DNA from: Kribbella soli
GTDB lineage: Bacteria; Actinomycetota; Actinomycetes; Propionibacteriales; Kribbellaceae
Direction of reading: 5' to 3'
NCBI RefSeq assembly: GCF_004331345.1
Contig: NZ_SJJZ01000004.1
Location: forward strand, 248,001-312,000
DNA: 64,000 nt
Both the position numbers and the translations under genes were made by a program. The notes below the pieces were generated by a model. It worked only from the letters and a program-made list of their open reading frames with translations, had not been told where the DNA came from and did no database searches. This document shows, piece by piece, positions 21,504-44,113 of this stretch (within the stretch, counting starts at the first letter, position 1; each line of letters begins with the position of its first letter).

Positions 21504-21604
21504 TGCAGCTCGACAGGACGTGTCGGATGGCCGGGTAGTGCACCTGAGCGTGAACGCGCCCGTGCGTACAGCGTCTCACCGGTGCACTACCTGTCGAGCT
21601 TGCA
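21504..21604 (+). repeat. Intergenic repeat module A, copy 1
   Basis: An imperfect nested palindrome. Outer arms are TGCAGCTCGACAGG (21504-21517) and CCTGTCGAGCTTGCA (21590-21604). Inner arms are GTAGTGCACC (21535-21544) and GGTGCACTAC (21581-21590), bounding a 56-base core element. The core matches the reverse complement of 44027-44082 at 51 of 56 positions. The left spacer between outer and inner arms is less conserved. It could act as RNA hairpin, protein site or a miniature element; nothing here says which. Confidence 0.8.
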
Positions 21605-21804
21605 CATCACCCCGCCGCGAGCAGCCGAGCCGCCACCAACCCGATCACCCAGCCGGCCACCCGGTGCGGAGAGCCGGATATCCCCTCGTGGGCAAGGCTC
21701 TCGTCGTGCCCGGTCAGGCCGGCCGGTGGGACGGACCGGGCGGTGCATGCCGCGTGCGGTGCGGTGCGGGCGGTGGTGTGGTGGCTGTCACGTCGGCCTG
21801 CGGC

Positions 21805-21857
21805 AGCTGTCGTGGCGGGGAGTGAAGTCGTCGCTATATGCAACTTTATTTCCCCGC
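21805..21857 (+). repeat. Intergenic repeat module B, copy 1
   Basis: 53 bases that match 30546-30598 at 44 of 53 positions without gaps. The first 17 bases, AGCTGTCGTGGCGGGGA, are identical, as are TCGTCGCT and TGCAAC inside. GCGGGGA near the left pairs with TTTCCCCGC at the right, and here the stem can extend to about 14 pairs with one bulge. Confidence 0.75.
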
Positions 21858-21865
21858 GCCCACAA

Positions 21866-21888
21866 CCTGTCCACCAAAAGTGGACAGG
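21866..21888 (-). terminator. Hairpin after deoA
   Basis: A perfect nine-base stem CCTGTCCAC/GTGGACAGG around a five-base loop (CAAAA on the plus strand), 25 bases beyond the deoA stop. Likely the 3' end of the nucleoside operon transcript. Confidence 0.65.
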
Positions 21889-21912
21889 CCCCGGGGCGGA
21901 AGAACGGTGAGG

Positions 21913-23190
21913 TCAGGCGGTGATGCGGTCGATGACCAGTGGGCCTGGCTGGTGGGAGTCGGCGACGGCGACTGCGTCTGTGAGGGACTCCAAGGCCCGC
22001 TCGATGCGGCTCGGGTCGTCGGTGTGCAGGGTGAGGAGTGGCTGGCCCTCCTGGATGCGGTCGCCCGGCTTGGCGTGCATCTCCACGCCGGCGACCGGCG
22101 ACACCGGGTCCTCCTTGCGTGCGCGGCCTGCGCCGAGGCGCCACGCCGCGACACCCACCGCGAGGGCGTCGAGCTTGGACAGTACGCCGGACGACGGGGC
22201 CGGTACGACGTGCTGCTCGGGAGCGACCGGGGGCTCGGCGGACGGGTCTCCGCCCTGGGCCGAGATCATCGCCCGCCAGGCGTCCATCGCCGTACCGTCG
22301 CGAAGCTTCTCGGCCGGGTCGACGCCGGTGACCCCGGCCGCGGCGAGCATCTCGTTGGCCAGGGCAACGGTCAGCTCGACGACGTCGGCAGGTCCGCCAC
22401 CGGCCAGTACCTCGACCGATTCGCGAACCTCCAAGGCGTTTCCGGCCGTCAGCCCCAGTGGGACGGACATGTCGGTGAGCAGGGCAACGGTCTTCACGCC
22501 CGCATCGGTGCCCAGGGCAACCATGGTCTCGGCGAGCTCGCGGGCGTCCGTCAGGTCCTTCATGAACGCGCCGGATCCGACCTTCACGTCCAGCACCAGC
22601 GCGCCGGTGCCTTCGGCGATCTTCTTGCTCATGATCGAACTGGCGATCAACGGGATCGCCTCGACCGTACCGGTCACGTCGCGCAGCGCGTACAGCTTCT
22701 TGTCCGCCGGCGCCAGACCGTCACCGGCCGCACAGATCACCGCGCCGACGTCCTCGAGCTGTTGCATCAGCTCGTCGTTCGACAGCGACGCCCGCCAGCC
22801 CGGGATCGACTCCAGCTTGTCCAGTGTGCCGCCGGTGTGGCCGAGCCCCCGGCCGGACAGTTGCGGTACGGCGACCCCGCAGGCCGCCACCAACGGGGCC
22901 AACGGCAACGTGATCTTGTCGCCGACGCCACCGGTCGAGTGCTTGTCGGCGGTCGGCCGGGACAGCTTGCCGAAGTCCATCCGCTCGCCGGACGCGATCA
23001 TCGCCGCGGTCCAGCGGGCGATCTCGCGCCGGTTCATCCCGTTCAGCAGGATCGCCATCGCCAGCGCGGACATCTGCTCGTCGGCGACGTCGCCCTTGGT
23101 GTAGGCGTCGATCACCCAGTCGATCTGCCCGTCGCTCAGCTCGCCCTTGTCCCGCTTGGCCCGGATGACATCCACCGCGTCGAAACTCAT
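21913..23190 (-). CDS. deoA: Thymidine phosphorylase
   Basis: A 425-residue pyrimidine-nucleoside phosphorylase that splits thymidine or deoxyuridine with phosphate. The phosphate and substrate segments are visible as DKHSTGGVGDK, SGRGLGHTGGTLDKLE, and the SSIMSKKIAEG and DVKVGSGAFMK motifs. The ATG overlaps the cytidine deaminase stop by one base (TGATG) with GGAGG just upstream; an ATG one codon earlier is also possible. It is last in the nucleoside uptake operon, so imported nucleosides are degraded to bases and ribose phosphates. Confidence 0.95.
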   Translation of the reverse strand: MSFDAVDVIRAKRDKGELSDGQIDWVIDAYTKGDVADEQMSALAMAILLNGMNRREIARWTAAMIASGERMDFGKLSRPTADKHSTGGVGDKITLPLAPLVAACGVAVPQLSGRGLGHTGGTLDKLESIPGWRASLSNDELMQQLEDVGAVICAAGDGLAPADKKLYALRDVTGTVEAIPLIASSIMSKKIAEGTGALVLDVKVGSGAFMKDLTDARELAETMVALGTDAGVKTVALLTDMSVPLGLTAGNALEVRESVEVLAGGGPADVVELTVALANEMLAAAGVTGVDPAEKLRDGTAMDAWRAMISAQGGDPSAEPPVAPEQHVVPAPSSGVLSKLDALAVGVAAWRLGAGRARKEDPVSPVAGVEMHAKPGDRIQEGQPLLTLHTDDPSRIERALESLTDAVAVADSHQPGPLVIDRITA

Positions 23191-23597
23191 CATTCCTCCA
23201 GAAACTCGGGCCCGAACGCGTCCGGCAGCAGTTCGCGCAGCGGCCGGATCCCGGTCGCGGTCTCGATCAGCAGCCCCGGGCCGCCGTTCTCGTGCAGCAA
23301 CTGCCGGCACCGTCCGCACGGCGTCAGCAGGTGCTCGTGCTGATCCACACAGGTGAACGCGACCAGCCGGCCACCTCCGGTCCGGTGCAGGTCCGACACC
23401 AGCCCGCACTCGGCGCACAGCGTCAAGCCGTACGACGCGTTCTCCACGTTGCACCCGGCAACGATCCGTCCGTCGTCGACGTACGCCGCGGCGCCCACCG
23501 GGAAGTGCGAGTACGGCGCGTACGCGCGGTGCATCATGTCGACGGCAACCGCGCGCAACGCCGGCCAGTCGACCTCACTCGGTGACGTAGGGCTCAC
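23190..23597 (-). CDS. cdd: Cytidine deaminase
   Basis: A 135-residue zinc hydrolase converting cytidine and deoxycytidine to uridines. The catalytic glutamate and zinc ligands are in LTLCAECGLVS and PCGRCRQLL, and the substrate motif GCNVENASYG is present. The length is standard for the tetrameric type. The GTG start lies inside the last codons of the upstream permease, a 23-base overlap in a different frame, showing tight coupling. Confidence 0.95.
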   Translation of the reverse strand: MSPTSPSEVDWPALRAVAVDMMHRAYAPYSHFPVGAAAYVDDGRIVAGCNVENASYGLTLCAECGLVSDLHRTGGGRLVAFTCVDQHEHLLTPCGRCRQLLHENGGPGLLIETATGIRPLRELLPDAFGPEFLEE

Positions 23598-24858
23598 CGT
23601 CCGCCTTAGGTGCTCTGACCCGGCCGACCAGGCCCGCGACCGCGATGATGGTGGCCAGGTACGGCGCCATCAGCAGCAGCTCGCCCGGGATCGGGGTCTG
23701 GATGATCTGCAGCTGGGACTGCAACTGCGTCGCGAACCCGAAGAACAGCGCCGCGACCATCGCACCGATCGGGTGCCAGCGGCCCATGATGAGCGCCGCC
23801 AGCGCGATGAACCCGTTGCCGGCGGTCATCTCCTTGCTGAACGAACCGGCATACCCGACCGTGAAGAAGGCGCCACCGAGCCCGGCCAGCACGCCTGCCC
23901 AGAGGACCGCGGAGTACCGGACCCGCTTCACCTTGATGCCGACCGTGTCGGCCGCCTTCGGGTGCTCGCCGACCGCGCGGACCCGCAGGCCCCACCGGGT
24001 CTGGAACAGCACGAACGTGACGACCGCGACCGCGAGGTAGGTCAGGTAGACCAGGACCGTCTGGTTGAACAGGATCGGCCCGATGAACGGGATGTCGGCC
24101 AGGCCCGGGATCTTCACCGCGGACAGCACGTTCGGCGTATTCAGTTTGTCCGCATCCTCCTGCAGGAACTGGTCGAACAGGTACCCGGTGATACCGGACG
24201 CGAACACCACCAGTACGACGCCCAGGACGACCTGGTTGACCAGGTACTTGATCGAGAACACGGCCAGCAGCCAGGCCATCACTACGCCGCTCACGGCGGC
24301 CGCGATCAACGCCGCCGCCGCGCTGTTCGTCGTACTCGAGACCACCGCGGCCGTGAACGCGCCGACCAGGAACTGGCCCTCGATCGCGATGTTGATGACC
24401 CCGGCCCGCTCGCACAGCACACCGGCGAGCGCGCCAAGGATCAGCGGGGTGGCGAAGTTCAGCGTGCCCTGGAACTGGTTGGCCAGCGGGAAGGTCTTGC
24501 CCGCGGCCGCCCAGCACAGGAACGAGCCGATGAAGCAGATCCCGAGCAGGGCAGCCAGGTAGCCGGAGTACGACTGCGGGACCCGGCGCAGCAGATACGC
24601 CCCCGCGGCGATCACACCGAGGATGCCGAGCACCAGCGCGGTGAACTGCGCGGGGACGCCGAGCAGGTTGTTCTGCAGGTCGCCGGAGACCAGCTGGAAC
24701 GTCGCCTTGCCACCGTTGGTGAAGATCGCCAGGCCGAAGCCGATCAGGGCGAACACCAGCATCACCCCGCCGACCCGCAACCGGCGGGTCCGGTCGGCCG
24801 GAGCCTCGATCGCCGCCGGCGCGGGCGGACGAACCGTGTCCGCAGTCGTCTCGCTCAT
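23575..24858 (-). CDS. Nucleoside ABC transporter permease, second subunit
   Basis: A 427-residue BPD_transp_2 family permease with about ten hydrophobic segments. The N-terminus (1-35) is charged, and the core contains ERAGVINIAIEGQFLVGAFTAA and the segment MTAGNGFIALAALIMGRWHP typical of NupQ/YufQ-type permeases. It overlaps the first permease by ATGA and cytidine deaminase by 23 bases. The BMP lipoprotein and double ATPase upstream complete the transporter. Confidence 0.92.
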   Translation of the reverse strand: MSETTADTVRPPAPAAIEAPADRTRRLRVGGVMLVFALIGFGLAIFTNGGKATFQLVSGDLQNNLLGVPAQFTALVLGILGVIAAGAYLLRRVPQSYSGYLAALLGICFIGSFLCWAAAGKTFPLANQFQGTLNFATPLILGALAGVLCERAGVINIAIEGQFLVGAFTAAVVSSTTNSAAAALIAAAVSGVVMAWLLAVFSIKYLVNQVVLGVVLVVFASGITGYLFDQFLQEDADKLNTPNVLSAVKIPGLADIPFIGPILFNQTVLVYLTYLAVAVVTFVLFQTRWGLRVRAVGEHPKAADTVGIKVKRVRYSAVLWAGVLAGLGGAFFTVGYAGSFSKEMTAGNGFIALAALIMGRWHPIGAMVAALFFGFATQLQSQLQIIQTPIPGELLLMAPYLATIIAVAGLVGRVRAPKADGEPYVTE

Positions 24859-26060
24859 CCGTTCCAGCCTTTCGCGAGGACCGCACCCACTCCGCGTTCC
24901 TTCGGCAGGAACGGGAAGATCGAACGCACCAGCGCCGGAGCCGCGACGAACAGCACGATCACGGCCTGCAGGACGGTGGTCAGGGTCAGCGGGGTCTGGG
25001 TGATCAGCTGCATCTGCAGACCGCCCGCGTTCAGCGCGCCGAACAGCAATCCGGCCAGCACGGTGCCGAGCGGCGTACCGCGTCCGAGCAGAGCGACCGT
25101 GATCGCGTCGAACCCGACCGAGGCAGCGACGCCGTCGGTCAGCGGCAGGTCGGTGCCCAGCACCTGCTGGGTCCCGGCCAGACCGGCCAGCGCTCCGGCC
25201 ACCACCATGGCAATGATGTACGCGCGGCCGACCGACATCCCCGCGGTCCGGGAGGCGTCCGCGTTCGCACCGACCGCGCGGAGCTCGAAGCCGATGGTCG
25301 ATCGGTTGAGCAACCACCAGACGAAGACCGCGGCCAGCAACGCCACAAGGAAGCCGAGGTGCAGCCGGGTGTCGCCGAACTGCGGGTACTGCGCGTTGGA
25401 GTTGACGACCGGCGAGATCGGGTCGGTCCGCCCGGGCCGCCGGAAAGCACTTGTCGTGAGCAACCACTGGAGCAGGTAGATCGCCACGTAGTTCAGCATG
25501 ATCGTCACGATCACCTCGTGGGCACCGGTTCGCGCCTTCAGCACGCCGACCACGCCACCCCACAGCGCGCCACCGATCAGGCCGGCGATCACCGCGAGAA
25601 CGAGGTGCAGAACAGGCGGCAGGTCCCACGCGAATCCGACGTACGCGGCCAGGATGGCGCCGACGATCAGCTGACCCTGGGCACCGATGTTGAACAACCC
25701 GGTGCGGAAGGCGAGCGAGACCGCGAGACCGCCACAGATCAGCGGCGTTGCCTGGGTCAACGATTCGGTGATCGGGGTGACCCCACCCAGTGCGCCGACG
25801 GCCAGCGCCTTGTAGGCCTCGCCGACCGCGCTCACGGCCGCGGAGACGGTGTCCATCGGCGCGGCGCCGAAGTACCCGACGGCCGTCTTCACCTGGTCGT
25901 CGCCGACGATGATCAGGATCGCGCCGACCAGCAGGGCCAGCACGATCGCGCTCAGCGAGACCAAACCCTGGATCGCCCACGACGGCAGGCCGGACCGCTG
26001 CGGTTCCCGCTGCGGCGCGGGCGCGGCCGGCGCCGGCTCGACGGTTGTGTCTGTGCTCAT
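24855..26060 (-). CDS. Nucleoside ABC transporter permease, first subunit
   Basis: A 401-residue BPD_transp_2 permease (NupP/YufP type). It has a proline/alanine-rich cytoplasmic N-terminus, then hydrophobic helices from WAIQGLVSLSAIVLALLVGA on. AFRTGLFNIGAQGQLIVGAILAAY is the family's signature segment. The ATG is immediately after the ATPase stop codon (TAGATG). Confidence 0.92.
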   Translation of the reverse strand: MSTDTTVEPAPAAPAPQREPQRSGLPSWAIQGLVSLSAIVLALLVGAILIIVGDDQVKTAVGYFGAAPMDTVSAAVSAVGEAYKALAVGALGGVTPITESLTQATPLICGGLAVSLAFRTGLFNIGAQGQLIVGAILAAYVGFAWDLPPVLHLVLAVIAGLIGGALWGGVVGVLKARTGAHEVIVTIMLNYVAIYLLQWLLTTSAFRRPGRTDPISPVVNSNAQYPQFGDTRLHLGFLVALLAAVFVWWLLNRSTIGFELRAVGANADASRTAGMSVGRAYIIAMVVAGALAGLAGTQQVLGTDLPLTDGVAASVGFDAITVALLGRGTPLGTVLAGLLFGALNAGGLQMQLITQTPLTLTTVLQAVIVLFVAAPALVRSIFPFLPKERGVGAVLAKGWNG

Positions 26061-27611
26061 CTAGATGGTTCCCAACGTGGTCGGGTTCTCGATCGCGACT
26101 TCGTGCGCCTCGGACTTGGAGGCACCGGCCATCATCAGGCCCAGCTCGTCGCGCGGGGTGTCGGCCGGGACGACGCCGACCACCTTGCCGCGGTACATCA
26201 CCGCGACCCGGTCGGTCAGCGCCGCGATCTCGTCCAGCTCGGTGGACACGATCAGTACCGCGGTGCCGTTGTCGCGTTCCTCGACGATCCGGGCATGCAG
26301 GAACTCGATCGAGCCGACGTCCACGCCGCGGGTCGGCTGGGACGCGACCAGCAGCTTCAGCGGGCGGGACAGCTCGCGGGCCAGCACCACCTTCTGCTGG
26401 TTGCCACCGGACAGCGACGACACCGGCTGGTCGATCCCCTGGGTGCGGATGTCGAACTCCTCCACCCGGGCCTGCGCGTTCTTCTCGATCTCGTCGGTCC
26501 GCAGTGCCAGCCCGTTGCCGAACGGCGCCTGGCGGAACAGGTCGAGGACCAGGTTCTCGGCGACCGTGAACGGGCCGACGAAGCCGTCGTGGGCACGGTC
26601 CTCGGGGACGTAGCCGATGCCGGCGTCCAGCCGCTGTCGCGTCGAACGTCCGGTCAGGTCGTCGCCGTCCAGCGAGATCTTGCCGGCCGCGATCGGAGTG
26701 AGCCCGAGCAGCGCCTCGGCCAGCTCGGTCTGGCCGTTGCCCTGGACACCGGCCACCGCGAGGATCTCGCCGGCCCGCACCTCGAGGTCCACACTGTCGA
26801 CAGCGGTGAACCCACGCTCGTCGATCACGGTCAGCCCCTCGACCCGCAGTACGACGTCCTTCGGCTGGGCCGGCTCCTTGTCGACGACCAGGTCGACGGC
26901 GCGGCCGACCATCAGCTCGGCCAGCTCTTCCTCGGACGCGGACGGCTCGGCGTCGCCGACGACCTTGCCGCGGCGGATCACGGTGATCTTGTCCGCGATC
27001 GCCTTGACCTCTTTGAGCTTGTGGGTGATGAAGACGATCGACGTGCCGTTCTCCTTGAGCTGGCGCATCACGCCGATCAGCTCGTCGATCTCGGCCGGGG
27101 TGAGCACCGCGGTCGGCTCGTCCAGGATCAGCACGCTGGCGTCGTTGGTGAGCGCCTTGATGATCTCCACCCGCTGCTGCACGCCCACCGGGATGTTCTC
27201 CACCAGCGCCTCGGGGTCGACCTCGAAGCCGTACCGGTCGGACAGCTCGGTGACCAGCGCGTGCGCCTTCTTCCGGTCCAGTACGCCGCCGGCCCGGGTG
27301 TTCTCCCGGCCGAGCATGATGTTCTCGGCGACCGTGAACACCGGGACCAGCATGAAGTGCTGGTGGACCATGCCGATACCGTGCTTGATCGCGTCGCTCG
27401 GCGAGGTGATCTGCACCTTCTCGCCGTCGATCACGATCTCGCCCGAGTCGGGCTGCAGCAGCCCGTAGAGCATGTTCATCAACGTGCTCTTGCCGGCCCC
27501 GTTCTCACCGAGCAGGCAGTGGATCTCACCCGGCTCGATGACCAGGTCGATGTGGTCGTTGGCGACCAGCGAGCCGAAGCTCTTGGTCAGGCCGGACAGC
27601 TCGAGATGCAT
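26061..27611 (-). CDS. Nucleoside ABC transporter ATP-binding protein, double domain
   Basis: A 516-residue protein with two ABC domains. The first has Walker A GENGAGKSTLMNMLYG and Walker B VLILDEPTAVL. Its signature loop is degenerate (PVGVQQRVEIIKAL), as usual in this type. The second has a degenerate Walker A (GVQGNGQTELAEAL), signature LSGGNQQKVVLARELS and a Walker B region changed to LLVASQPTRGVDV. This asymmetry is normal for ribose- and nucleoside-type ATPases. It is 87 bases after the binding protein, with a hairpin between them. Confidence 0.95.
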   Translation of the reverse strand: MHLELSGLTKSFGSLVANDHIDLVIEPGEIHCLLGENGAGKSTLMNMLYGLLQPDSGEIVIDGEKVQITSPSDAIKHGIGMVHQHFMLVPVFTVAENIMLGRENTRAGGVLDRKKAHALVTELSDRYGFEVDPEALVENIPVGVQQRVEIIKALTNDASVLILDEPTAVLTPAEIDELIGVMRQLKENGTSIVFITHKLKEVKAIADKITVIRRGKVVGDAEPSASEEELAELMVGRAVDLVVDKEPAQPKDVVLRVEGLTVIDERGFTAVDSVDLEVRAGEILAVAGVQGNGQTELAEALLGLTPIAAGKISLDGDDLTGRSTRQRLDAGIGYVPEDRAHDGFVGPFTVAENLVLDLFRQAPFGNGLALRTDEIEKNAQARVEEFDIRTQGIDQPVSSLSGGNQQKVVLARELSRPLKLLVASQPTRGVDVGSIEFLHARIVEERDNGTAVLIVSTELDEIAALTDRVAVMYRGKVVGVVPADTPRDELGLMMAGASKSEAHEVAIENPTTLGTI

Positions 27612-27637
27612 GCGGGCAGCCTTCCCTCTCAGACGGA

Positions 27638-27678
27638 GAGCCAGGAAGGCGTGACCTGTAGGTCTGCCTTCCTGGCTC
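27638..27678 (-). terminator. Intercistronic hairpin between BMP lipoprotein and ATPase genes
   Basis: A perfect 13-base stem GAGCCAGGAAGGC/GCCTTCCTGGCTC with a 15-base loop that itself contains ACCT/AGGT. It lies 20 bases after the BMP stop and 26 before the ATPase start. It probably acts as a partial terminator or mRNA stabiliser, giving more binding protein than transporter. Confidence 0.75.
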
Positions 27679-27698
27679 GCACCGTACTACGCGGTGTG

Positions 27699-29086: not shown

Positions 29087-30268
29087 ATGAGTCATCAGTT
29101 GCTGGTCGCGGACGTGCTGGCGCGGGTCGAGGCGGTCCGTGAGGACATGGTCGACGTACGGCGCGATCTGCACACGCACCCGGAACTCGGGTGGCACGAG
29201 GTGCGGACGACCGAGCTGCTCGAGAAGCGGCTCGTCGAGGCCGGGCTGTCGCCTCGGGTGCTGCCGACCGGGACCGGGCTGATCTGCGACATCGGATCCG
29301 GCGACACGTGTGTCGCGCTGCGGGCCGACATCGACGCGCTGCCGGTACCGGACGGCGTCGAGGCGCCGTGGCGGTCGACCCTCGACGGGGTGGCTCACGC
29401 GTGCGGTCACGACGTACACACGTCGGCGCTGCTCGGTGCGGCGCTGGTGCTGGCCGGGATGGCGCGCGACGGACAGCTGGACCGGCGGGTCCGGGTGATC
29501 TTCCAGCCGGCCGAGGAAGTGATGCCGGGCGGGGCACTCGGCGTCATCGCGGCCGGCGGGCTCGACGGGGTCCGCCGTATTTATGGTGTGCACTGCGATC
29601 CGCGACTGCAGGTCGGGCAGGTCGGACTGCGGGTGGGCGCGCTGACGGCGGCGGCGGACCGGATCCTGGTCCGGCTGACCGGTCCGGGTGGTCACACCTC
29701 GCGGCCCCATCTGACCGCCGATCTCGTGTACGCGCTCGCGACGCTCGTCTCCGAGCTCCCGGCCGCTCTCTCCCGCCGGGTCGACCCCCGCGCGGGCATG
29801 TCCCTCGTCTGGGGCCGCATCACCTCCGGCTCGGCGGCCAACGCGATCCCGTCCCGCGGCGAGGCCGAAGGCACCCTGCGCTGCCTCGACGCCAACGCGT
29901 GGCGCCTCGCGGAGGAGCTCATCCCGTCGCTGGCCGCGCAGATCGTCCGCCCGTACGGCGTGGCGGTCGACACGGAGGTCACGCACGGCGTACCCCCCGT
30001 CGTGAACGACGCGACCGCGATCAGCGTCCTGCAGAACGCCGTACAGCAGACCCTCGGCGCCAGCGCCCTCGCCCCGACCGACCAGAGCCTCGGCGGCGAA
30101 GACTTCGCCTGGTACCTCGAAGACGTCCCCGGCGCCATGGCCCGCCTCGGCGTCCGCCCACCCACCCAAGAAAACGCGGCGGACCTCCACACCCCCGGCT
30201 TCGACCCCTCCGAAGAAGCCATCACCGTAGGCACCACCCTCCTCACCACCACCGCCCTCCTCGACTAA
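29087..30268 (+). CDS. M20-family amidohydrolase
   Basis: A 393-residue metal-dependent amidohydrolase (aminoacylase, hippurate or carboxypeptidase group). Landmarks are DLHTHPELGWHE, the metal-binding ACGHDVHTSALLGAAL, FQPAEEVMPGGA and the C-terminal GGEDFAWYL. A dimerisation domain inserts at about 180-290 (GPGGHTSRPH). No signal peptide is present, so it is cytoplasmic. It is divergent from the nucleoside operon; the substrate is probably an N-acylated amino acid, but this cannot be fixed from sequence. Confidence 0.9.
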   Translation: MSHQLLVADVLARVEAVREDMVDVRRDLHTHPELGWHEVRTTELLEKRLVEAGLSPRVLPTGTGLICDIGSGDTCVALRADIDALPVPDGVEAPWRSTLDGVAHACGHDVHTSALLGAALVLAGMARDGQLDRRVRVIFQPAEEVMPGGALGVIAAGGLDGVRRIYGVHCDPRLQVGQVGLRVGALTAAADRILVRLTGPGGHTSRPHLTADLVYALATLVSELPAALSRRVDPRAGMSLVWGRITSGSAANAIPSRGEAEGTLRCLDANAWRLAEELIPSLAAQIVRPYGVAVDTEVTHGVPPVVNDATAISVLQNAVQQTLGASALAPTDQSLGGEDFAWYLEDVPGAMARLGVRPPTQENAADLHTPGFDPSEEAITVGTTLLTTTALLD

Positions 30269-30470
30269 GGAAACGCACAGCTGCGCAAAGGGCACCGCTT
30301 CGCAGCGACAGTCTTCCGCCGCCTCCGGCGGGAGCGCATCAGGTGCAGCTGGACGGAGGGACTGGCGCCAGGGGCACCACCGACTCCCACCGCAAGGCAC
30401 GGCACGCGCCCGCAGCAGGTCCGTCGGTGGGACCGGGTCGTCGAGTCGTGGGTTTTGGCGGTCACCTGCA

Positions 30471-30526
30471 GCCTCGATCCACGACTCGCGGTTTCGAGGG
30501 GCAACCAAACGCCACGACTCGGCGTG
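30471..30526 (+). repeat. Intergenic repeat module C, copy 1
   Basis: 56 bases closely matching 43853-43907. It holds CCACGACTCG twice in direct orientation (30479-30488 and 30512-30521) and ends with the small hairpin ACGCC/GGCGT. Both ends of the module are nearly identical between copies; the middle (30490-30505) varies. Confidence 0.75.
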
Positions 30527-30545
30527 AGGCCGCATGTGCGGCGGG

Positions 30546-30598
30546 AGCTGTCGTGGCGGGGAAAGAAATCGTCGCTCTGTGCAACAGAGTTTCCCCGC
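30546..30598 (+). repeat. Intergenic repeat module B, copy 2
   Basis: 53 bases matching 21805-21857 at 44 positions without gaps. It folds as two nested stems: outer GCGGGGAAA/TTTCCCCGC and inner CTCTG/CAGAG around TGCAA. GAAATCGTCG lies unpaired on the 5' side. Confidence 0.75.
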
Positions 30599-30714
30599 TC
30601 TTGAGGTTTGGCTCCGATCGGGCAGGAGTCTCCCACCAACCTCCGTCAGGTACCTGCCGCGCACGCCGCCGGAGGCGGCCGACAGGGAGGCGCCGTCTTT
30701 TGGGGTGGTGGTGG

Positions 30715-32289
30715 TTAGAAGGTGTCGGCTGGGACGTAGACGCCCCAGACGTCTCTGAGGGTGTTGGAGACTTCGCCGACGGTGGCTCGGGCCTTTAGGG
30801 CGTCTTTCATCGGGTAGAGGCAGTTGTCGTTGCCTTCGGCAGCTTTTTTGAGGGCGGCCAGGGCCTCGTCGACGGCGGTCTGGTCGCGGGTGCTGCGGAG
30901 GGTGGCCAGGCGGGCTACCTGCTGGGCCTCGATGGTGGGGTCCACGCGGAGGGGTTCGTACGGCTCCTCGTCGGTGATCTTGAACTTGTTCATGCCGACG
31001 ACGACGCGTTCGACGGCGTCGATCTCCTGGGCGATCTGGTACGCCGAGCGCTCGATCTCCTGTTTCTGGTAGCCCTTCTCGATCGCGGCGACCGCACCGC
31101 CGTACTCCTCGACCTGGTCCATGAGCTCGACCGCGGCAGCCTCGACCTCGTCGGTGAGCGACTCGACGACGTACGAGCCGGCGAACGGGTCGACCGTCGC
31201 GGTGATGTCGGTCTCGTAGGCGAGGACCTGCTGCGTGCGCAGCGCGAGGCGGGCCGCCTTCTCGGTCGGGAGCGCGATCGCTTCGTCGTACGAGTTGGTG
31301 TGCAACGACTGGGTTCCACCGAGTACGGCGGCCAGGCCCTGGATCGCGACCCGCACCAGGTTCACCTCGGGCTGCTGCGCGGTGAGCTGCACGCCCGCGG
31401 TCTGCGTGTGGAAGCGGAGCATCAACGACTTCGGGTTGCGAGCGCCGAAGGAGTCCCGCATCACCCGCGCCCAGATCCGCCGCGCCGCACGGAACTTCGC
31501 GACCTCCTCGAGCAACGTCGTCCGGGCGACGAAGAAGAACGACAGCCGCGGCGCGAACTCGTCCACGTCCAGCCCGGACGCGATCGCGGCCCGCACGTAC
31601 TCGATCCCGTTCGCGAGCGTGAACGCGATCTCCTGCGCGGGCGTCGCCCCGGCCTCGGCCATGTGGTAGCCGGAGATCGAGATCGTGTTCCAGCGCGGCA
31701 GCTCCGCCTGGCAGTACGCGAAGATGTCGCTGATCAGCCGCAGCGACTCCTTCGGCGGGTAGATGTAGGTGCCGCGGGCGATGTACTCCTTCAGTACGTC
31801 GTTCTGGATCGTGCCGGTGAGCTTGTCACCGGAGACCCCCTGCTCCTCGGCCACCAACTGGTACAGCAGGAGCAGCACCGACCCGGGCGCGTTGATCGTC
31901 ATCGAGGTCGACACCTGGTCCAGTGGGATCTTGTCGAACAGCACCCGCATGTCGTCGATCGAGTCGATCGCCACCCCGACCTTGCCGACCTCGCCGTGCG
32001 CGATCGGTGCGTCGGAGTCGTACCCCATCTGGGTCGGCAGGTCGAACGCGACCGACAATCCCATGGTCCCGTGGTCGATCAGCTGGTGGTACCGCTGGTT
32101 CGACTCGGCCGCCGTGCCGAACCCGGCGTACTGCCGCATCGTCCACGGCCGCTGGGTGTACATCGTCGGGTACACGCCCCGGGTGTACGGGAACTGCCCC
32201 GGCTCCCCCAGCTTCGCCTCGGCGTCGAACCCGTCGAGCGGTCCGTAGACCGGCGCGAACTCGAACCCCGACTCGCTCCGATGACTCAT
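30715..32289 (-). CDS. Acyl-CoA mutase large subunit (methylmalonyl-CoA mutase type), stand-alone
   Basis: A 524-residue B12-dependent mutase catalytic domain. The N-terminal TIM barrel region shows [21 protein letters not shown], and [13 protein letters not shown] is the barrel's family signature. The tyrosine in PTMY and the arginine in KESLRLI agree with the methylmalonyl-CoA type rather than isobutyryl-CoA mutase, as I recall those positions. There is no C-terminal B12-binding domain, so a separate small B12 subunit is required; none is in the window. The ATG abuts GGGAGG with almost no spacing. Confidence 0.88.
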
Positions 32290-35539: not shown

Positions 35540-35542
35540 CCG

Positions 35543-35579: not shown

Positions 35580-35581
35580 TC

Positions 35582-35790: not shown

Positions 35791-35902
35791 GGGACTAACC
35801 AAGCACAGCCCGGTGGCAACCTGAAGGACACTTCAAGGCCCCGCACCTGTCGACAGGGCATCGACGCCGTGTCACGAGAGTGTCGCCCAGGGTTCATGGT
35901 CG

Positions 35903-38241: not shown

Positions 38242-39053
38242 GTCAGGTGGTCGTAGTCGCCTCGGGTCCAGGCTGCGTGGCGGTCGGCGGAGCGGCGTAC
38301 GACGGCCTTGGCGTCGACCGGGATCACCGAACCGAAGTTGTTGTAGAGGCGGTCGTACTCGAAGGGGTCGAGGGAGCGGGCCACCCGGTCGACGACCGCG
38401 CCGGACAGCGGGATGCGGTTGGGGTAGCTGCGCATGAAGCTGACCGAGGTGCGGTCGGGGTTCGCGAAGATGGTGTCGCCGGACAGGATCACTCCCTTGC
38501 CCTCGGCACCGTTCGCCCAGTGCACGACCGCGCTGCCGGGGAAGTGACCGCCGGGCTGGAGGACGGTCACTCCGGGTAGCGGCGTGAGCTGCCCGGACCA
38601 GGTCTCGATCACCGCGTCCGGACGCGCGACCCACTCCTTGTCGGCCTCCGAGACATACACCGGTACGTTGCCCAGGCGGTGGCTCCACTCGACCTGGACG
38701 CCGTACATGTGCGGGTGGCTGGCGACGATCGCGACTACGTCGCCGAGCTCCCGGATCCGGCGTACGGCGTCGTCGTCCAGGTACCCGATCGGGTCCCAGA
38801 GCAGGTTGCCCTCGGACGTTGTCACCAGCATCGACTGCTGCCCGATCCCCACCGGCGGCTTCGAGCGGACGCCGTACAGGCCGGGCTCGACCTCGTCGAG
38901 GGTGACCTCGGTGCCGGCCGCGGCCAGCTCCTCCAGCGTGGTCCAGTGCTGCCCGTCGGCGGGCACCCACTGCCGCTCGTCGGCGCAGATCGCGCACACC
39001 TCGACCTGCTCCGAGTGCTCGACCGCACAGGTCGCACAGATCCAGAAACTCAC
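38238..39053 (-). CDS. Metallo-beta-lactamase-fold protein with N-terminal zinc ribbon
   Basis: A 271-residue protein. An N-terminal ribbon carries two CxxC pairs, CATC and CAIC, near residues 6-23, like a rubredoxin-type zinc finger. The rest has the MBL fold: IVASHPHMYG at the first metal site, QPGGHFPGSAVVHW and LSGDTIF. The usual HxHxDH is HPHMYG here, so two ligands are missing. The GTG is chosen because GGGGAG lies seven bases upstream. The function is unknown. It is divergent from the sdh operon. Confidence 0.75.
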   Translation of the reverse strand: MSFWICATCAVEHSEQVEVCAICADERQWVPADGQHWTTLEELAAAGTEVTLDEVEPGLYGVRSKPPVGIGQQSMLVTTSEGNLLWDPIGYLDDDAVRRIRELGDVVAIVASHPHMYGVQVEWSHRLGNVPVYVSEADKEWVARPDAVIETWSGQLTPLPGVTVLQPGGHFPGSAVVHWANGAEGKGVILSGDTIFANPDRTSVSFMRSYPNRIPLSGAVVDRVARSLDPFEYDRLYNNFGSVIPVDAKAVVRRSADRHAAWTRGDYDHLT

Positions 39054-39279
39054 TGTAGTTCTCCCCTTCGATTCCGATGTGCCGTCAGCCAAAGCGTTCA
39101 AGCGCAGTTGAAGTCAAGTGCATCGGAGGCTCACCGTCGAGGGCCACTGCGGGGCCTGCTCGATGGGCCACTACGCGACCGATCTCACATCTGTCAGGCC
39201 AATTCGGGGCTGATCGCGGGACTAGCATCGAACCGGCTTGGTTTTCTCCGGGCCGAGAGACGTTCGATCGGAGGACGGT

Positions 39280-39657
39280 TTGCCCAGCAAACCAGCCGGC
39301 ACGCTCTACCGCGGCCGGGAGGGCATGTGGTCATGGGTCGCGCACCGGATCACCGGTGTCGGGATCTTCTTCTTCCTGCTGGTGCACGTGCTGGACACCG
39401 CACTGGTGCGGGTCTCGCCGGAGGCCTACAACGAGGTCATCGGCACCTACAAGAACCCGATCGTCGGTTTGCTCGAGGTCGGCCTGGTGGCGGCGATCCT
39501 GTTCCACGCGTTCAACGGCGTCCGGCTGATCCTGGTGGACTTCTGGGCCAAGGGCCCGCGCTACCAGCGGCAGCTGATGATCGGCGTCGGCGTGCTCTGG
39601 GTGGTGCTGTTCGTGCCGTTCGTCATCCGGCATCTGACCCACGTGTTCGGAGGCTGA
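39280..39657 (+). CDS. sdhC: Succinate dehydrogenase cytochrome b556 subunit
   Basis: A 125-residue membrane anchor of complex II with three helices. The family segment is AGTLYRGREGMWSWVAHRIT, and a haem histidine is likely in FHAFNGVRLIL. The TTG start is preceded by GGAGG (39270-39274) at a spacing of 5. It heads sdhCDAB. TAGCAT (39223-39228) is a possible -10; the upstream 226 bases up to the divergent MBL gene hold no gene. Confidence 0.9.
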   Translation: MPSKPAGTLYRGREGMWSWVAHRITGVGIFFFLLVHVLDTALVRVSPEAYNEVIGTYKNPIVGLLEVGLVAAILFHAFNGVRLILVDFWAKGPRYQRQLMIGVGVLWVVLFVPFVIRHLTHVFGG

Positions 39658-39658
39658 G

Positions 39659-40114
39659 ATGAGCGAGATCGCTGCCCCGAGGTCCAGTTCCCGCGCCCGC
39701 AAGCTGAAGGGCGGCGGCCGGAACCGTTCCGGGCAGACCAACTTCGAGCTCTACAGCTGGCTGTTCATGCGGCTGTCCGGGCTCGCCCTCGTCATCCTGG
39801 TGCTCGGGCACCTGTTCGTGAACCTGATGCTCGGCGGCGGGATCACCGCGCTGGACTTCGGCTTCGTGGCCGGCAAGTGGGCCAACCCGCTGTGGCAGGT
39901 CTGGGACCTGCTGATGCTGTGGCTGGCGATGCTGCACGGCACCAACGGGCTGCGCACGATCATCAACGACTACGCCGAGAAGGACCAGACCCGGTTCTGG
40001 CTCAAGGCCTTGCTGATCACGGCGGCGATCGTGATCGTCGTCCTCGGCACCCTGGTGATCTTCACGTTCGACCCCTGCCTCGACCCCAACAGCACGTTGA
40101 CGGTCTGCAAGTAA
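39659..40114 (+). CDS. sdhD: Succinate dehydrogenase hydrophobic anchor subunit
   Basis: A 151-residue subunit with a basic N-terminus (SSSRARKLKGGGRNRSGQ) and three membrane helices. LVILVLGHLFVNLML and LAMLHGTNGLRTII contain the haem and quinone-site histidines. It starts one base after sdhC ends. Confidence 0.9.
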   Translation: MSEIAAPRSSSRARKLKGGGRNRSGQTNFELYSWLFMRLSGLALVILVLGHLFVNLMLGGGITALDFGFVAGKWANPLWQVWDLLMLWLAMLHGTNGLRTIINDYAEKDQTRFWLKALLITAAIVIVVLGTLVIFTFDPCLDPNSTLTVCK

Positions 40115-40138
40115 GACTGTGCACATTTAAGGACTGGA

Positions 40139-41881
40139 ATGCAGCAGCATCAGTACGACGTCATCATCGTCGGCGCGGGCGGGGCCGGAATGCGGGCCGC
40201 CCTCGAGTCGAGCACGCGGACCCGTACCGCCGTACTCACCAAGCTCTACCCGACCCGTTCGCACACCGGCGCTGCCCAGGGCGGTATGTGCGCCGCGCTG
40301 GCGAACGTCGAGGAGGACAACTGGGAGTGGCACACCTTCGACACGGTCAAGGGCGGCGACTTCCTGGTCGACCAGGACGCGGCCGAGGTGATGTGCCGCG
40401 AGGCCGTCGACGCGGTTCTCGACCTGGAGAAGATGGGCCTGCCGTTCAACCGGACCGCCGAGGGCAAGATCGACCAGCGGTTCTTCGGCGGCCACACCCG
40501 CAACCACGGTGAGGCCGTCGTACGCCGGTCCTGCTTCGCGGCCGACCGTACCGGTCACATGATCCTGCAGACGCTGTACCAGCAGTGCATCAAGCAGAAC
40601 GTCGAGTTCTTCAACGAGTACTACGTTCTCGACCTGCTCATGACCGACGGCAAGGCGAGCGGCGTGGTCGCGTACGAGCTGGCGACCGGCGAGCTGCACG
40701 TGTTCTCCGCCAAGTCCGTGATCTTCGCGTCGGGCGGTTTCGGCAAGGTCTTCCGTACGACGTCCAACGCGCACACCCTGACCGGTGACGGGATGGGCAT
40801 CGTGTGGCGCAAGGGCCTGCCGCTGGAGGACATGGAGTTCTTCCAGTTCCACCCGACCGGCCTGGCGGGTCTCGGCGTACTGCTGTCGGAGGCGGCCCGT
40901 GGTGAGGGCGGCATCCTGCGGAACGCCGACAACGAACGCTTCATGGAACGGTATGCCCCGACCGTGAAGGACCTCGCGCCCCGCGACATGGTCGCGCGGG
41001 CGATGGCGAACGAAGTACGGGAAGGTCGTGGCTGCGGGCCCGACAAGGCCTACGTGATGCTCGACCTGACGCACCTGGAGCCCGCGCACATCGACGCGAA
41101 GCTGCCGGACATCACCGAGTTCGCCCGGACCTACCTGGGTGTGGAGCCGTACACCGAGCAGATCCCGGTGTTCCCGACCGCGCACTACGCGATGGGCGGC
41201 ATCCCGACCAACATCAAGGGCGAGGCGCTGGCCAACAACGAGGACGTGATCCCGGGCCTGTACGCCGCCGGTGAGGTCGCCTGCGTCTCGGTGCACGGTG
41301 CGAACCGGCTGGGTACCAACTCGCTGCTCGACATCAACGTGTTCGGCCGCCGGGCCGGGATCGCCGCCGCGGAGTACGCCGCGACGGCCGAGTTCGAGGA
41401 GCTGCCGGCGGACCCGTCGGCGTACGTCGTGGAGCTTGTCGAGGGCCTGCGTAACTCGACCGGCGAGGAGCGGATCGCCGCGATCCGGTCCGACCTGCAG
41501 GCAACGATGGACCTGAACGCCCAGGTGTACCGCACCGAAGGCTCGCTGAAGCAGGCGCTCATCGACATCGAGGCGCTGAAGCTCCGGTTCGCCAATGTCG
41601 CCGTCCAGGACAAGGGCAAGCGGTTCAACACCGATCTGCTGGAGGCCGTCGAGCTCGGGTTCCTGCTCGACCTGGCCGAGGTGCTGGTGGTGTCCGCGCT
41701 GGAGCGCAAGGAGTCCCGCGGCGGGCACTTCCGCGAGGACTACGACAAGCGCGACGACGTCAACTTCATGCGGCACACGATGGCGTACCGCGAGGTCGAT
41801 GCTGACGGCAACGAGACGATCCGGCTCGACTACAAGCCGGTCGTGCAGACCCGCTACAAGCCGATGGAGCGCAAGTACTGA
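40139..41881 (+). CDS. sdhA: Succinate dehydrogenase flavoprotein subunit
   Basis: A 580-residue FAD subunit of complex II that oxidises succinate to fumarate. The dinucleotide motif is DVIIVGAGGAGMRAALE, and the covalent FAD histidine is in RSHTGAAQGGMCAAL. The capping domain and the active-site segment MGGIPTNIKGEAL follow, then HGANRLGTNSLLDINVFGRRAG. It is 24 bases after sdhD. The length and motifs are normal. Confidence 0.97.
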   Translation: MQQHQYDVIIVGAGGAGMRAALESSTRTRTAVLTKLYPTRSHTGAAQGGMCAALANVEEDNWEWHTFDTVKGGDFLVDQDAAEVMCREAVDAVLDLEKMGLPFNRTAEGKIDQRFFGGHTRNHGEAVVRRSCFAADRTGHMILQTLYQQCIKQNVEFFNEYYVLDLLMTDGKASGVVAYELATGELHVFSAKSVIFASGGFGKVFRTTSNAHTLTGDGMGIVWRKGLPLEDMEFFQFHPTGLAGLGVLLSEAARGEGGILRNADNERFMERYAPTVKDLAPRDMVARAMANEVREGRGCGPDKAYVMLDLTHLEPAHIDAKLPDITEFARTYLGVEPYTEQIPVFPTAHYAMGGIPTNIKGEALANNEDVIPGLYAAGEVACVSVHGANRLGTNSLLDINVFGRRAGIAAAEYAATAEFEELPADPSAYVVELVEGLRNSTGEERIAAIRSDLQATMDLNAQVYRTEGSLKQALIDIEALKLRFANVAVQDKGKRFNTDLLEAVELGFLLDLAEVLVVSALERKESRGGHFREDYDKRDDVNFMRHTMAYREVDADGNETIRLDYKPVVQTRYKPMERKY

Positions 41882-42585
41882 TGGACGTCAAGGTCAAGAT
41901 CCTCCGGTACAACCCCGAGGTCGTCGACGAGGCCGAGTGGAAGACGTACGCCGTCACGCTGCAGCCCACCGACCGGGTCCTGGACGCGCTGCACAAGATC
42001 AAGTGGGAGCAGGACGGCACGCTGACGTTCCGGCGGTCCTGCGCGCACGGTGTCTGCGGCTCGGACGCGATGCGGATCAACGGCCGCAACCGGCTGGCCT
42101 GCAAGACGCTGATCAAGGACCTGAGCCCGGACAAGGAGATCACGGTCGAGCCCATCAAGGGCCTGCCGGTGCTCAAGGACCTGGTCGTCGACATGGAGCC
42201 GTTCTTCGACGCGTACCGCTCGGTGATGCCGTTCCTGGTCACCAGCGGCCACGAGCCGACCCGGGAGCGGATCCAGTCGCAGGCCGACCGGGACCGGTTC
42301 GACGACACCACCAAGTGCATCCTGTGCGCGGCCTGTACGACGTCCTGCCCGGTGTTCTGGTCCGACGGCCAGTACTTCGGCCCGCAGGCGATCGTCGGCG
42401 CGCACCGGTTCATCTTCGACAGCCGTGACGAGGGCACCGAGCAGCGGCTGGAGATCCTGAACGACAAGGAAGGCGTCTGGCGCTGCCGGACCACCTTCAA
42501 CTGCACCGACGCCTGCCCGCGCGGCATCGAGGTCACCAAGGCGATCCAGGAAGTGAAGCGGGCACTCATCTTCCGTCGGGTGTGA
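41881..42585 (+). CDS. sdhB: Succinate dehydrogenase iron-sulfur subunit
   Basis: A 234-residue subunit. The [2Fe-2S] cysteines lie in CAHGVCGSDAMRINGRNRLAC; the [4Fe-4S] and [3Fe-4S] cysteines in CILCAACTTSCPVFW and CRTTFNCTDACPRGI. It shares one base with the sdhA stop (TGATG), ensuring equal synthesis. Confidence 0.97.
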   Translation: MDVKVKILRYNPEVVDEAEWKTYAVTLQPTDRVLDALHKIKWEQDGTLTFRRSCAHGVCGSDAMRINGRNRLACKTLIKDLSPDKEITVEPIKGLPVLKDLVVDMEPFFDAYRSVMPFLVTSGHEPTRERIQSQADRDRFDDTTKCILCAACTTSCPVFWSDGQYFGPQAIVGAHRFIFDSRDEGTEQRLEILNDKEGVWRCRTTFNCTDACPRGIEVTKAIQEVKRALIFRRV

Positions 42586-42664
42586 GCCTGCGCCTTTCTT
42601 CGCATAAGATTCCACCGCCGACCTGACCCCCATCGCGGGGACACCTGCGCCTTGGGGGGTGACT

Positions 42665-43825
42665 GTGGAGCCGCGCCTGCGCGAGTTGTCCGACCGCTAC
42701 TACCGTCGCCTGGTGGAGCTGTTGGAGCGCTGTGGCCTACCCCGCAGCATGCCGCCGTTCCTCGTCCTCGGGGTGCTCGCGGCCACGACGTCCATCGTGC
42801 TCGCGGTGGTGCACCTGACCTCCCACCGGTCGCACACCGAGTCGCCGATCGCCATCGAGCCGGCCGTCGCGGGGCGGTCCGGCAGCGCCGTGGTGACTTC
42901 CGCACGCGCGCAGGTGCAGTCGATCACGATGGTGACCCGGAACCGCTGGGCGGCCGGCTGGTCCGACTGCACCAGCGGCCCGAACTGCAAGTTCGCCGCG
43001 GTCATCGACCGTGACGGCTCCCGCGCCACCGCCCCCGAGTGGCCGGTCCCGTACGCGACCCTGCAGGCGGGCAAGGAGGCGATCGCGGTCGCCCCGCCGC
43101 TCGAGGGCACGCTGACCGGCGACGCGACGATGATGTTCCGGCTGACGTACGACGGCCCGGTGCTCACCAAGCTCCAGTACCGGCTGCCCACCTCGACGTT
43201 CCAGAAGAACGAGATCCTCACCGACCGGATCGTGCCGGGCTCGATCGTCGTGGTGAACCCGGAGGAGTCGACGGTCCGGATGCTCAGGACCCGCGGCACC
43301 CGCTCCCCGGTCTGTGACGAGTCCGGCCGCTGCTGGATGCTGACCGGGATCGGCCGCACCGACGTCGTCTGGACCGACGACGGCGGCCGCACCTGGGGCT
43401 CGCGGTCGCTGGACAGCCACAACCAGCTCGGCCGGCTCGCGGTCAGCCCGGACGGCCGCACGCTGCTGTCGACCGCGATCACCATCGGCGCCGCCGGTCA
43501 GACCGTCTCGAAGATGCAGATCTCCACCGACCGCGGCGCGAACTGGACCCTGGTCCAGAACCCGCCGCCGAGCCTGAGCGCCTCGCCGCTCGCCTTCGAC
43601 GACGGCACCGCGCTGATCCTCGGCGGCCGCCGCGGCGACCGCCCACGCCTGTACCGGGTCCGCGACGGCGCCGCCAAGCTGGACCGCGGCTACCCCGGCG
43701 ACCTCGCCGACCTGTCCGGCGACACCCAGCTCATGTACGGCTTCGAGGTCCCGAAGCGTCGCACCACCGAGGTAGTCCTCAGCACCGACCAGGGCGCCAC
43801 CTGGACCAAGTTCGCCCCTCGCTAG
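42665..43825 (+). CDS. Membrane-anchored BNR/sialidase-like beta-propeller protein
   Basis: About 387 residues. A basic N-terminus and one membrane helix (about 34-52, FLVLGVLAATTSIVLAVVHL) precede an extracellular propeller. Repeats of the Asp-box type are visible: VWTDDGGRTWGSR, ISTDRGANWTLVQ, LSTDQGATWTKF. Cysteine pairs (DCTSGPNC, CDESGRCW) suggest disulfides. I used GTG 42665 because the G-run at 42654-42659 is a ribosome site five bases before it; GTG 42659 lies within that run. There is no catalytic evidence; it may be a binding protein. Confidence 0.75.
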   Translation: MEPRLRELSDRYYRRLVELLERCGLPRSMPPFLVLGVLAATTSIVLAVVHLTSHRSHTESPIAIEPAVAGRSGSAVVTSARAQVQSITMVTRNRWAAGWSDCTSGPNCKFAAVIDRDGSRATAPEWPVPYATLQAGKEAIAVAPPLEGTLTGDATMMFRLTYDGPVLTKLQYRLPTSTFQKNEILTDRIVPGSIVVVNPEESTVRMLRTRGTRSPVCDESGRCWMLTGIGRTDVVWTDDGGRTWGSRSLDSHNQLGRLAVSPDGRTLLSTAITIGAAGQTVSKMQISTDRGANWTLVQNPPPSLSASPLAFDDGTALILGGRRGDRPRLYRVRDGAAKLDRGYPGDLADLSGDTQLMYGFEVPKRRTTEVVLSTDQGATWTKFAPR

Positions 43826-43852
43826 CGCCGCACCTCGTCAGATCCGCGAAGC

Positions 43853-43907
43853 GCCTCGATCCACGACTCGCGTTTCGGCGACCAACTAAACGCCACGACT
43901 CGGCGTG
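43853..43907 (+). repeat. Intergenic repeat module C, copy 2
   Basis: 55 bases aligned with 30471-30526 with one gap. The first 20 and last ~18 bases are identical, including both CCACGACTCG repeats. The middle (TTTCGGCGACCAACT) differs. Confidence 0.75.
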
Positions 43908-44013
43908 CTACCGGTCGAGCAGGGGCTGCAGCGGCAGCCGGGCCCTCTGCCGCGCGTGGTTGGTCGGGCGAGTCGGCACGGTGGCAGTGCCGGGCGCGCA
44001 ACGACGGATCGTG

Positions 44014-44113
44014 TGCAGCTGGACAGGTAGTGCACCTCTGAGACGCTGTACGCGCGGGCGTGATCACGCTCAGGTGCACTACCCCGACGGCTGACACCAT
44101 CTGTCCAGCTGCA
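44014..44113 (-). repeat. Intergenic repeat module A, copy 2 (inverted)
   Basis: The reverse complement aligns with 21504-21604. Outer arms TGCAGCTGGACAG (44014-44026) and CTGTCCAGCTGCA (44101-44113) are perfect inverted repeats, and inner arms GTAGTGCACC (44027-44036) and GGTGCACTAC (44073-44082) are perfect. In the outer arm the change from CTCGAC to CTGGAC is matched on the opposite arm, which suggests that pairing is preserved. Confidence 0.8.

Follow-up and report, generated by a model that had tools for sequence, protein, structure and literature searches.

Mosaics of BIME-like palindromic elements at convergent gene ends in Kribbella

We analysed a 64,000-nt stretch of the Kribbella soli genome (contig NZ_SJJZ01000004.1, positions 248,001 to 312,000; hereafter the window) in which three junctions, I, II and III, had been described by a first-pass annotation as gene-free and lying between convergent genes. 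Codon-usage gene calls agree, and sequence comparison bears out modules A, B and C as genuine repeats, with every module found at two of these junctions. We consider a composite explanation probable: the junctions are mosaics of non-autonomous palindromic elements, similar to bacterial interspersed mosaic elements (BIMEs) and partly built by ISL3-type miniature elements, and the core of module A is selected, its function being unproven. The earlier picture of a family of mosaic 3′-end elements was right in outline, as all 110 A copies placed in 13 Kribbella genomes are intergenic (with at most 35 nt of gene-end overlap) and are enriched at convergent junctions. Filled and empty sites, patchy copy number and ISL3-type ends with direct repeats all speak for its suggestion that these are mobile pieces of a non-autonomous kind.

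Results

Placement and co-occurrence of the modules

In the 8.785-Mb genome (window GC 69%; genes called with a codon-usage gene caller), BLAST located 28 places for A (E<1e-6), 13 for B and 24 for C (E<1e-3), those of the window included. Convergent junctions hold 13/28 of the A places, 7/13 of the B places and 12/25 of the C places, the last count adding L085, which lies above the 1e-3 cut. None of these 66 places overlaps a called gene. Across the 13 Kribbella genomes, 57 of the 110 A copies are convergent, 36 tandem and 17 divergent, and none overlaps a gene by more than 35 nt. The figures are 24/42 convergent, 12 tandem and 6 divergent in seven named genomes, a count that leaves out 5/47 copies at locus edges, and 20/40, 13 and 7, respectively, among the best-scoring matches listed for five further genomes. 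Outside this genome, 44/82 A copies are convergent compared with 63/424 other junctions in the same loci (p=5e-13); where those other junctions are at least 150 bp wide, 8/96 are convergent. Within the window the modules had been described as sitting only at tail-to-tail junctions, but beyond it an exclusive location of this kind is ruled out by tandem and divergent copies in all A sets. Convergent placement is thus a genuine preference but no rule.

Tandem A copies lie closer to the upstream 3′ end in 31/36 cases, at a median distance from the upstream stop of 55 nt in this genome and 40 nt in the named genomes. Their orientation shows no clear preference (12/36 same, 24/36 opposite).

Moreover, the modules keep company with one another. 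Within 800 kb of the genome, 26 modules of families A to D occupy 18 of 734 junctions, 9 of which are convergent against roughly 3 expected. Two or three families share a junction in 6/18 cases (5 if a neighbouring C and B are scored as a single unit), whereas two gap-weighted models predict 1.2–1.3 (p≤0.0006). Scanning this genome and its relatives has yielded further copies and enrichment at convergent junctions and, in this genome, co-occurrence above expectation. A C-B pair in fixed order and orientation, about 1–10 nt apart, was observed at C5:200135-200291, 278437-278604 and 721064-721231. It may constitute one composite unit, and B is also found alone.

Clustering of repeats in 415 intergenic gaps of at least 40 bp returned A, a merged B/C group, D (GGATATCCCCTC...) and eleven others as the 14 largest groups, eight of the eleven being palindromic by eye. 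Gaps holding repeats make up 18/54 of the convergent, 26/219 of the tandem and 6/142 of the divergent gaps; some of the tandem groups are of another nature, for example a repeat at start codons. D and the eleven other groups rule out a closed set of three modules. What had been read as three modules in pairwise combination thus looks like an accident of sampling, given these eleven further groups and 6/18 occupied junctions with several families.

Distribution and turnover among species

A covariance model found A in 29/38 Kribbella genomes at 0–37 copies each (392 matches at E≤0.001, scoring being capped at 102 candidates per genome). A further 158 sampled genomes of the order gave no match at E≤1e-5 or under stricter filters. 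In a collection of 84,980 species, matches to the exact core pattern were confined to Kribbella (46 loci). One match with two mismatches in G057, of the same order, was taken as chance, reversed-pattern controls having given 3. A is genus-specific as far as searched.

In the four closest relatives the proteins beside the junctions are 91–98% identical while junction content differs. The gap at III measures 347 nt here and 0–58 nt in 15/19 relatives called convergent; those at I (505 nt) and II (446 nt) are below 100 nt in 17/22 and 15/23 such relatives, the identity of the second neighbour having been checked in part of the relatives. The mosaic at junction I is not the same in this genome, G005 and G012, and in G017 and G025 that junction spans 4–14 nt. 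The genes at III overlap in G005; in G012 the right-hand gene is a different one, and G025 carries a different palindrome family there. Junctions I and III look like recurrent landing places because unrelated repeats sit there in other species. Other module copies are shared: C at II also occurs at the orthologous junction of G012 (87/92 aligned nt identical), and A at III (44012-44117) is kept at the same junction in G017. The unrelated repeats at orthologous junctions consist of CCCCAAACTGGTTTGGGGAG units in L154 (G025, III) and of CCATTTCAGGGGTTCACC units in L136 (G030, I).

A three-way comparison over 400 kb revealed a mosaic of about 540 nt that is common to this genome and G012 and missing in G005. 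At the five A junctions of this genome in that region, A is present in G012 at 2/5 and in G005 at 0/5. Insertion would be the natural reading of the clean filled and empty sites. Large differences in gap length are not peculiar to convergent pairs: conserved gene pairs differ by at least 80 nt in 14–15% of convergent, 11–12% of tandem and 11–14% of divergent cases; many of the large tandem and divergent differences are differences in gene start, not repeats.

Structure of module A and constraint in place

We aligned 71 A copies (alignment A1), comprising 25/28 from this genome and 46/47 named pattern matches; L022, L026 and L027, which have a common deletion, and one named copy at a locus edge were left out. 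In the consensus, outer arms TGTGCAGCTCGACAGG / CCTGTCGAGCTGCACA (idealised) surround two half-sites GTAGTGCAC in inverted orientation, and both the spacer and the 3′ strand are conserved. The half-sites sit within a longer element with arms of its own. The invariance of the 5′ part owes something to the retrieval pattern, which fixes GTAG and supplied 46/71 copies.

The arms likely covary among copies, with 89 double-change cells compared with 45.5 in shuffled alignments and at most 41 in slid structures, an excess over the slid versions that is partly built in, as the structure was derived by hand from the consensus sequence; a covariation score agrees. Among the best A copies from 26 genomes, which cover 26 of 30 loci, many have quite different but complementary arms, these copies having been picked by the covariance model and hence being biased to pairing. 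The inner part is kept as sequence, with an unpaired position (columns 23–70 of the inner stem) in 30/71 copies. Mismatches show no excess of G-U (102 cells) over A-C (133), and this balance gives no sign that A acts as RNA from one strand in particular; for the small apical hairpin taken separately the counts are 47 and 36. In L202, L203 and L226 the neighbouring gene crosses an A arm and has its stop in the TAG of ACAGGTAG; a gene also ends at a TAG in L351, there in the other arm. Gene ends fall inside the A core in 8/140 cases (own and seven-genome sets).

Six A copies of this genome were assigned same-junction partners in other species from long flanking matches; the pair L019-L227 (L019 being already paired), L018 and L021 (short flanks) and L002 and L011 (partial) were left out. 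Changes were counted in 3′-half columns only, outside the retrieval pattern. Conserved columns had changed in 4/134 comparisons against 441/2321 (19%) flanking fourfold sites (p=2.4e-8), and variable columns in 45/208. Gene conversion is an unlikely cause, since the variable columns drift at about the neutral (fourfold) rate. The A core thus appears to be under selection in place. Some factor may read it, because the core is kept at shared junctions while the arms drift. On these alignments the simplest reading would be recognition of the core by some factor, with arms that either serve spread or are under loose constraint where they sit.

As for RNA signals, no match at gathering score was found in Rfam for the window, and an Rfam RNA family was rejected on this result. 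Promoter and terminator scans of I and III gave nothing, and the terminator scan of II gave 3 weak sites against 0.4 expected. The proposal of a processing RNA found no support, with no clear orientation preference, no G-U excess and no Rfam match. A function on one strand as RNA was set aside on the balance of G-U and A-C mismatches and the mixed orientation.

ISL3-type miniature elements

The ends of the 540-nt mosaic (C5:436145), GGCTCTTCTGTC.. and GGCTCTTGTGAC.., resemble those of an ISL3-family insertion sequence, and these inverted ends are bounded by an 8–9-bp direct repeat. ISL3 elements produce 8-bp target repeats. G012 contains two copies of this insertion sequence within 1446 nt of identical sequence; GGATAACC stands on either side of each copy and, by eye, each adjoins a D-like GGGGATAACC end. 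G005 has a related ISL3 insertion sequence with similar ends. We scanned the intergenic gaps of 1.6 Mb for inverted GGCTCT pairs whose flanking 8-mers differ at two positions or fewer; this returned 3 elements, and seven control motifs returned 0. These are 384 bp (with B, C and D), 650 bp (with B) and 236 bp (with A, in stretch I) long. Exact GGTTATCC direct repeats bound the 384-bp element at C5:200067, while the presumed target repeats in stretch I and at C5:599600 agree at 6/8 positions. The flanks GGACAACC/GGATATCC, GGTTATCC and the GGATAACC of G012 all conform to GGNNNNCC. Terminal repeats matching the ISL3 insertion sequence are found in the 384-bp, 650-bp and 540-nt elements and in that of stretch I (21440-21675), whose left end resembles the ISL3 end GGCTCTTGTGACTGAT of G012 and whose right end is weak past the first six bases. 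A passage in PMC11702846 is loosely consistent with ISL3 target repeats of 8 bp. Among the extra families D is the most relevant, because the ISL3-type ends abut it. Nesting and hitch-hiking account for part of the mosaic, not all.

Mobilisation by RAYT (REP-associated tyrosine transposase; REP, repetitive extragenic palindrome) was also considered. PF01797 (RAYT) matched in 1/38 Kribbella genomes, which is not this one, and in 5/14 control genomes; as it was not found in 37/38 genomes, this candidate was rejected.

The three junctions

Junction I separates genes 20778-21407 (+) and 21913-23193 (-), junction II genes 29087-30268 (+) and 30715-32289 (-), and junction III gene 42665-43825 (+) and a gene from 44173 (-). 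They are the sole convergent gaps of more than 100 bp in the window; in 800 kb of the genome convergent gaps have a median of 9 bp, and 24/145 are at least 150 bp. The other convergent gaps in the window had been described as overlapping, nearly abutting or holding a simple terminator, and 7/8 do overlap or nearly abut, the remaining one (1647/1723) measuring 75 bp. The seven pairs end at 6451/6448, 8403/8387, 10842/10852, 19599/19556, 38241/38238, 46285/46257 and 58320/58314. The genes flanking I to III look ordinary: a Pfam search identified a pyrimidine nucleoside phosphorylase, an M20 peptidase and a methylmalonyl-CoA mutase. The others are a product that matches BNR repeats weakly, a frame containing DUF2000 and a protein with no Pfam match.

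The two A copies (21504-21600 and 44017-44113) are inverted relative to each other and 85% identical over 97 nt, and the B copies (21800-21857 and 30541-30598) are 83% identical over 58 nt. The C query 30430-30540 (111 nt) matches 43853-43907 at 89% over 55–56 nt, so that III holds about half a C module only. Stretch I additionally contains half a D module and ISL3-type ends. The putative isolated outer arm of A reported in II, GTGCAGCTGGAC, is present but lies at 30343-30354, not at 30341-30352. The fold predicted for 44012-44117 has z scores of -6.2 and -5.5 on its two strands. Table 1 lists the features.

Table 1. Repeat modules and ISL3-type features at junctions I to III (window coordinates)
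Feature	Coordinates	Strand	Evidence
Presumed left 8-bp target repeat GGACAACC of ISL3-type element, stretch I	21432..21439	.	6/8 positions equal to GGATATCC
ISL3-type miniature element (236 bp) with module A inside; termini GGCTCTTGTGACC... and ...AGAGCC	21440..21675	.	Inverted GGCTCT scan
Module A, first copy	21500..21608	-	Covariance model E 7e-28; fold -57 kcal/mol, z -4.8
Presumed right target repeat GGATATCC, at end of half D module continuing rightwards	21676..21683	.	
Module B, first copy	21800..21860	+	Sequence match to second copy; BLAST
Isolated 12-nt match to outer arm of A	30343..30354	+	Sequence
Module C, full length	30430..30531	+	BLAST; fold -52.6 kcal/mol, z -3.5
Module B, second copy, about 10 nt beyond C, same orientation	30541..30604	+	BLAST
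Half module C	43852..43912	+	BLAST; no unusual fold alone (z -0.2)
Module A, second copy, without ISL3-type ends nearby	44012..44117	+	Fold -60.8 kcal/mol, z -6.2; 0/200 shuffles as stable

Discussion

We consider it probable that short palindromic non-coding elements have spread through Kribbella genomes and survive mainly where they are harmless, that is, in gene-free gaps at gene 3′ ends, above all convergent ones. Elements with ISL3-type ends may have been moved in trans by an ISL3-family transposase, and solitary copies of A, B and C by some other enzyme. A would in addition have been recruited, by way of a core of two inverted GTAGTGCAC half-sites and the conserved spacer. Both termination and chromosome organisation, which the first-pass annotation had raised, are possible roles. 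As the likeliest role, though at odds clearly below even, we tentatively suggest that A could act as an orientation-independent 3′-end barrier, either a bidirectional hairpin terminator or a protein-bound roadblock against convergent transcripts; that it is a site for a DNA-organising protein seems unlikely. It is almost evenly balanced whether most A copies have any host role, the chance that they have none falling just short of even. The fullest version, in which A is a recruited mobile 3′-end device, a genus-specific hairpin that works in either orientation, travels partly as ISL3-type cargo, inserts at gene ends and is kept there because a core read by a protein or by polymerase is selected to insulate convergent genes, must be considered doubtful. 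Were A recruited in this way, mobile palindromes in competition with one another would keep supplying Kribbella with new transcription boundaries.

A number of observations weigh against the composite explanation or parts of it. Of the A copies, 17/110 lie between divergent genes, and absence from a relative can in any single case be a deletion, for example between short repeats. At a solitary A copy (i=292) we could identify no clean target repeat, and the direct repeat is exact in 1/3 scan elements (384 bp). An ISL3-type end lies within 240 nt of A in 13/28 own and 8/43 named copies, several of them just at threshold (1.5% of random windows have one, with two windows counted per A copy); either end is present in 21/71 copies, and ends on both sides in one copy per set (2/71). 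No ISL3 transposase was found in this genome, and ISL3 occurs in 15/38 genomes without tracking A copy number (G025 has 37 copies and no match). An intrinsic terminator is a GC-rich hairpin followed by a U-tract, and no U-tract terminator is predicted in I or III. With regard to the arms, pairs with a double change number 11 against 11.0 in shuffles, RNAalifold predicts only 6 pairs on A1 and 3 on our own trimmed alignment, and changes between A orthologues comprise 6 that break and 6 that make a pair (one-sided), with 1 double change keeping it. Whole-core identity of A orthologues is about 90%, between coding (92%) and fourfold (84%) sites. Moreover, the named copies were found by a 5′-half pattern that favours intact ones, so that constrained copies may be over-represented.

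The strongest competitor is that the modules are purely selfish or inert debris, like REPs or miniature inverted-repeat transposable elements (MITEs), placed as they are by selection against insertion in genes, operons and promoters. We take this as a serious possibility, though one that we lean against. The absence of A from gene bodies (0/110), its patchy copy number of 0–37 within one genus, the short gaps at I, II and III in most relatives called convergent, the drift of A arms in place and the other repeat families found in the same junctions (G025 at III, G030 at I) are all what it would lead one to expect. However, inert debris should decay evenly, and at the six shared junctions the conserved columns of A changed little whereas the variable ones changed at about the fourfold rate.

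Two further readings assign the modules a single cellular role. That they are structured RNA in 3′ untranslated regions, serving on one strand as a processing, stability or termination signal, would account for the strong predicted folds on both strands of 44012-44117, for arms that covary among copies and for the short median stop distances of tandem copies (55 and 40 nt). We nevertheless judge it improbable: no strand is preferred overall (G-U 102, A-C 133), though the apical hairpin leans the other way (47 and 36), tandem copies are oriented 12 same and 24 opposite, the inner stem has an unpaired position in 30/71 copies, and the window gave no Rfam match. Binding sites for a nucleoid or chromosome-organising protein, as has been proposed for BIMEs, would explain inverted conserved half-sites without fixed orientation on several contigs, and an inner part kept by sequence and not by pairing. 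Copy number, however, runs from 0 to 37 in related species, which speaks against a broad function in chromosome architecture; we judge this reading quite unlikely.

BIME-like mosaics are usually explained by RAYT transposases. The statement that no family of this form had been described was too strong: PMC2817692 and PMC3733652 present REPs and BIMEs as mosaic extragenic palindromes with a similar placement bias, mostly 3′ of genes and between convergent or unidirectional ones, and as proposed non-autonomous mobile DNA. The A, B and C families themselves were not found in the literature searched. Like REPs and BIMEs, the Kribbella modules are short dispersed extragenic palindromes outside genes. 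They differ in that a RAYT match occurs in only 1/38 genomes, that the A unit measures about 108 nt as opposed to 20–40 and has tens of copies as opposed to more than 100, that A lacks an overall G-U excess and that part of the mosaic derives from ISL3-type elements. A also partly recalls REPINs (REP doublets forming hairpins), described in PMC3116915, in that its consensus has two inverted conserved half-sites, with GTAG where the inner stem begins on its outer side, in a predicted extragenic hairpin; unlike them, it has no cognate RAYT that we could find, has outer arms beyond the GTAG half-sites and, in the modelled structure, pairs GTAG with CTAC.

The 236-, 384- and 650-bp elements resemble ISL3 MITEs in their ISL3-type inverted ends and GGNNNNCC flanks, as with the ISL3 of G012. 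However, they carry palindromic modules as cargo and abut D, and the autonomous partner is in sister species and was not found in this genome. With bidirectional Rho-independent terminators A shares a strong predicted hairpin on both strands and a position at 3′ ends. It differs from them in lacking a U-tract in I or III, in being a conserved 100-nt sequence and not any GC-rich stem, and in being variably present and genus-specific.

Taken together, these data describe a BIME-like mosaic in an actinobacterial genus where 1/38 genomes has a RAYT domain, and ISL3-type miniature elements nested beside palindromes represent one visible route to such mosaics. The A core provides a handle on whether extragenic palindromes are junk or useful in place, a question that is testable in Kribbella because conserved columns of A hold while the rest drifts.

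Other repeat families

A palindromic family, GTCCTGTCTGGTGATCC..., occurs at G000:C5:347422, 379475, 589267 and 684042, and in G012 at the orthologue of C5:348818. All copies have one core, whereas the outer arms vary from copy to copy while still looking complementary. At 347422 the copy leaves both convergent genes with a stop codon, and the empty site of this family at C5:347422 would fit a TA repeat. As a general reason for 3′-end placement we also considered targeting of TA at stop codons, which would suit this one empty-site family but does not fit A, where no clean target repeat was seen. TA occurs 8553 times in 704,743 bp of coding sequence and 1736 times in the 95,257 bp of other sequence, and so is only mildly scarcer in coding DNA.

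Lastly, a 105–113-bp repeat (GGGGCCTCCCGG...) lies directly upstream of start codons of tandem genes at G000:C5:31274-31392, 167686-167801 and 463128-463243, and also in G012 at the orthologue of C5:307919. Relatives without it have a common GTCAT at the joint, as if duplicated. On the gene strand, this repeat may encode a short leader peptide.

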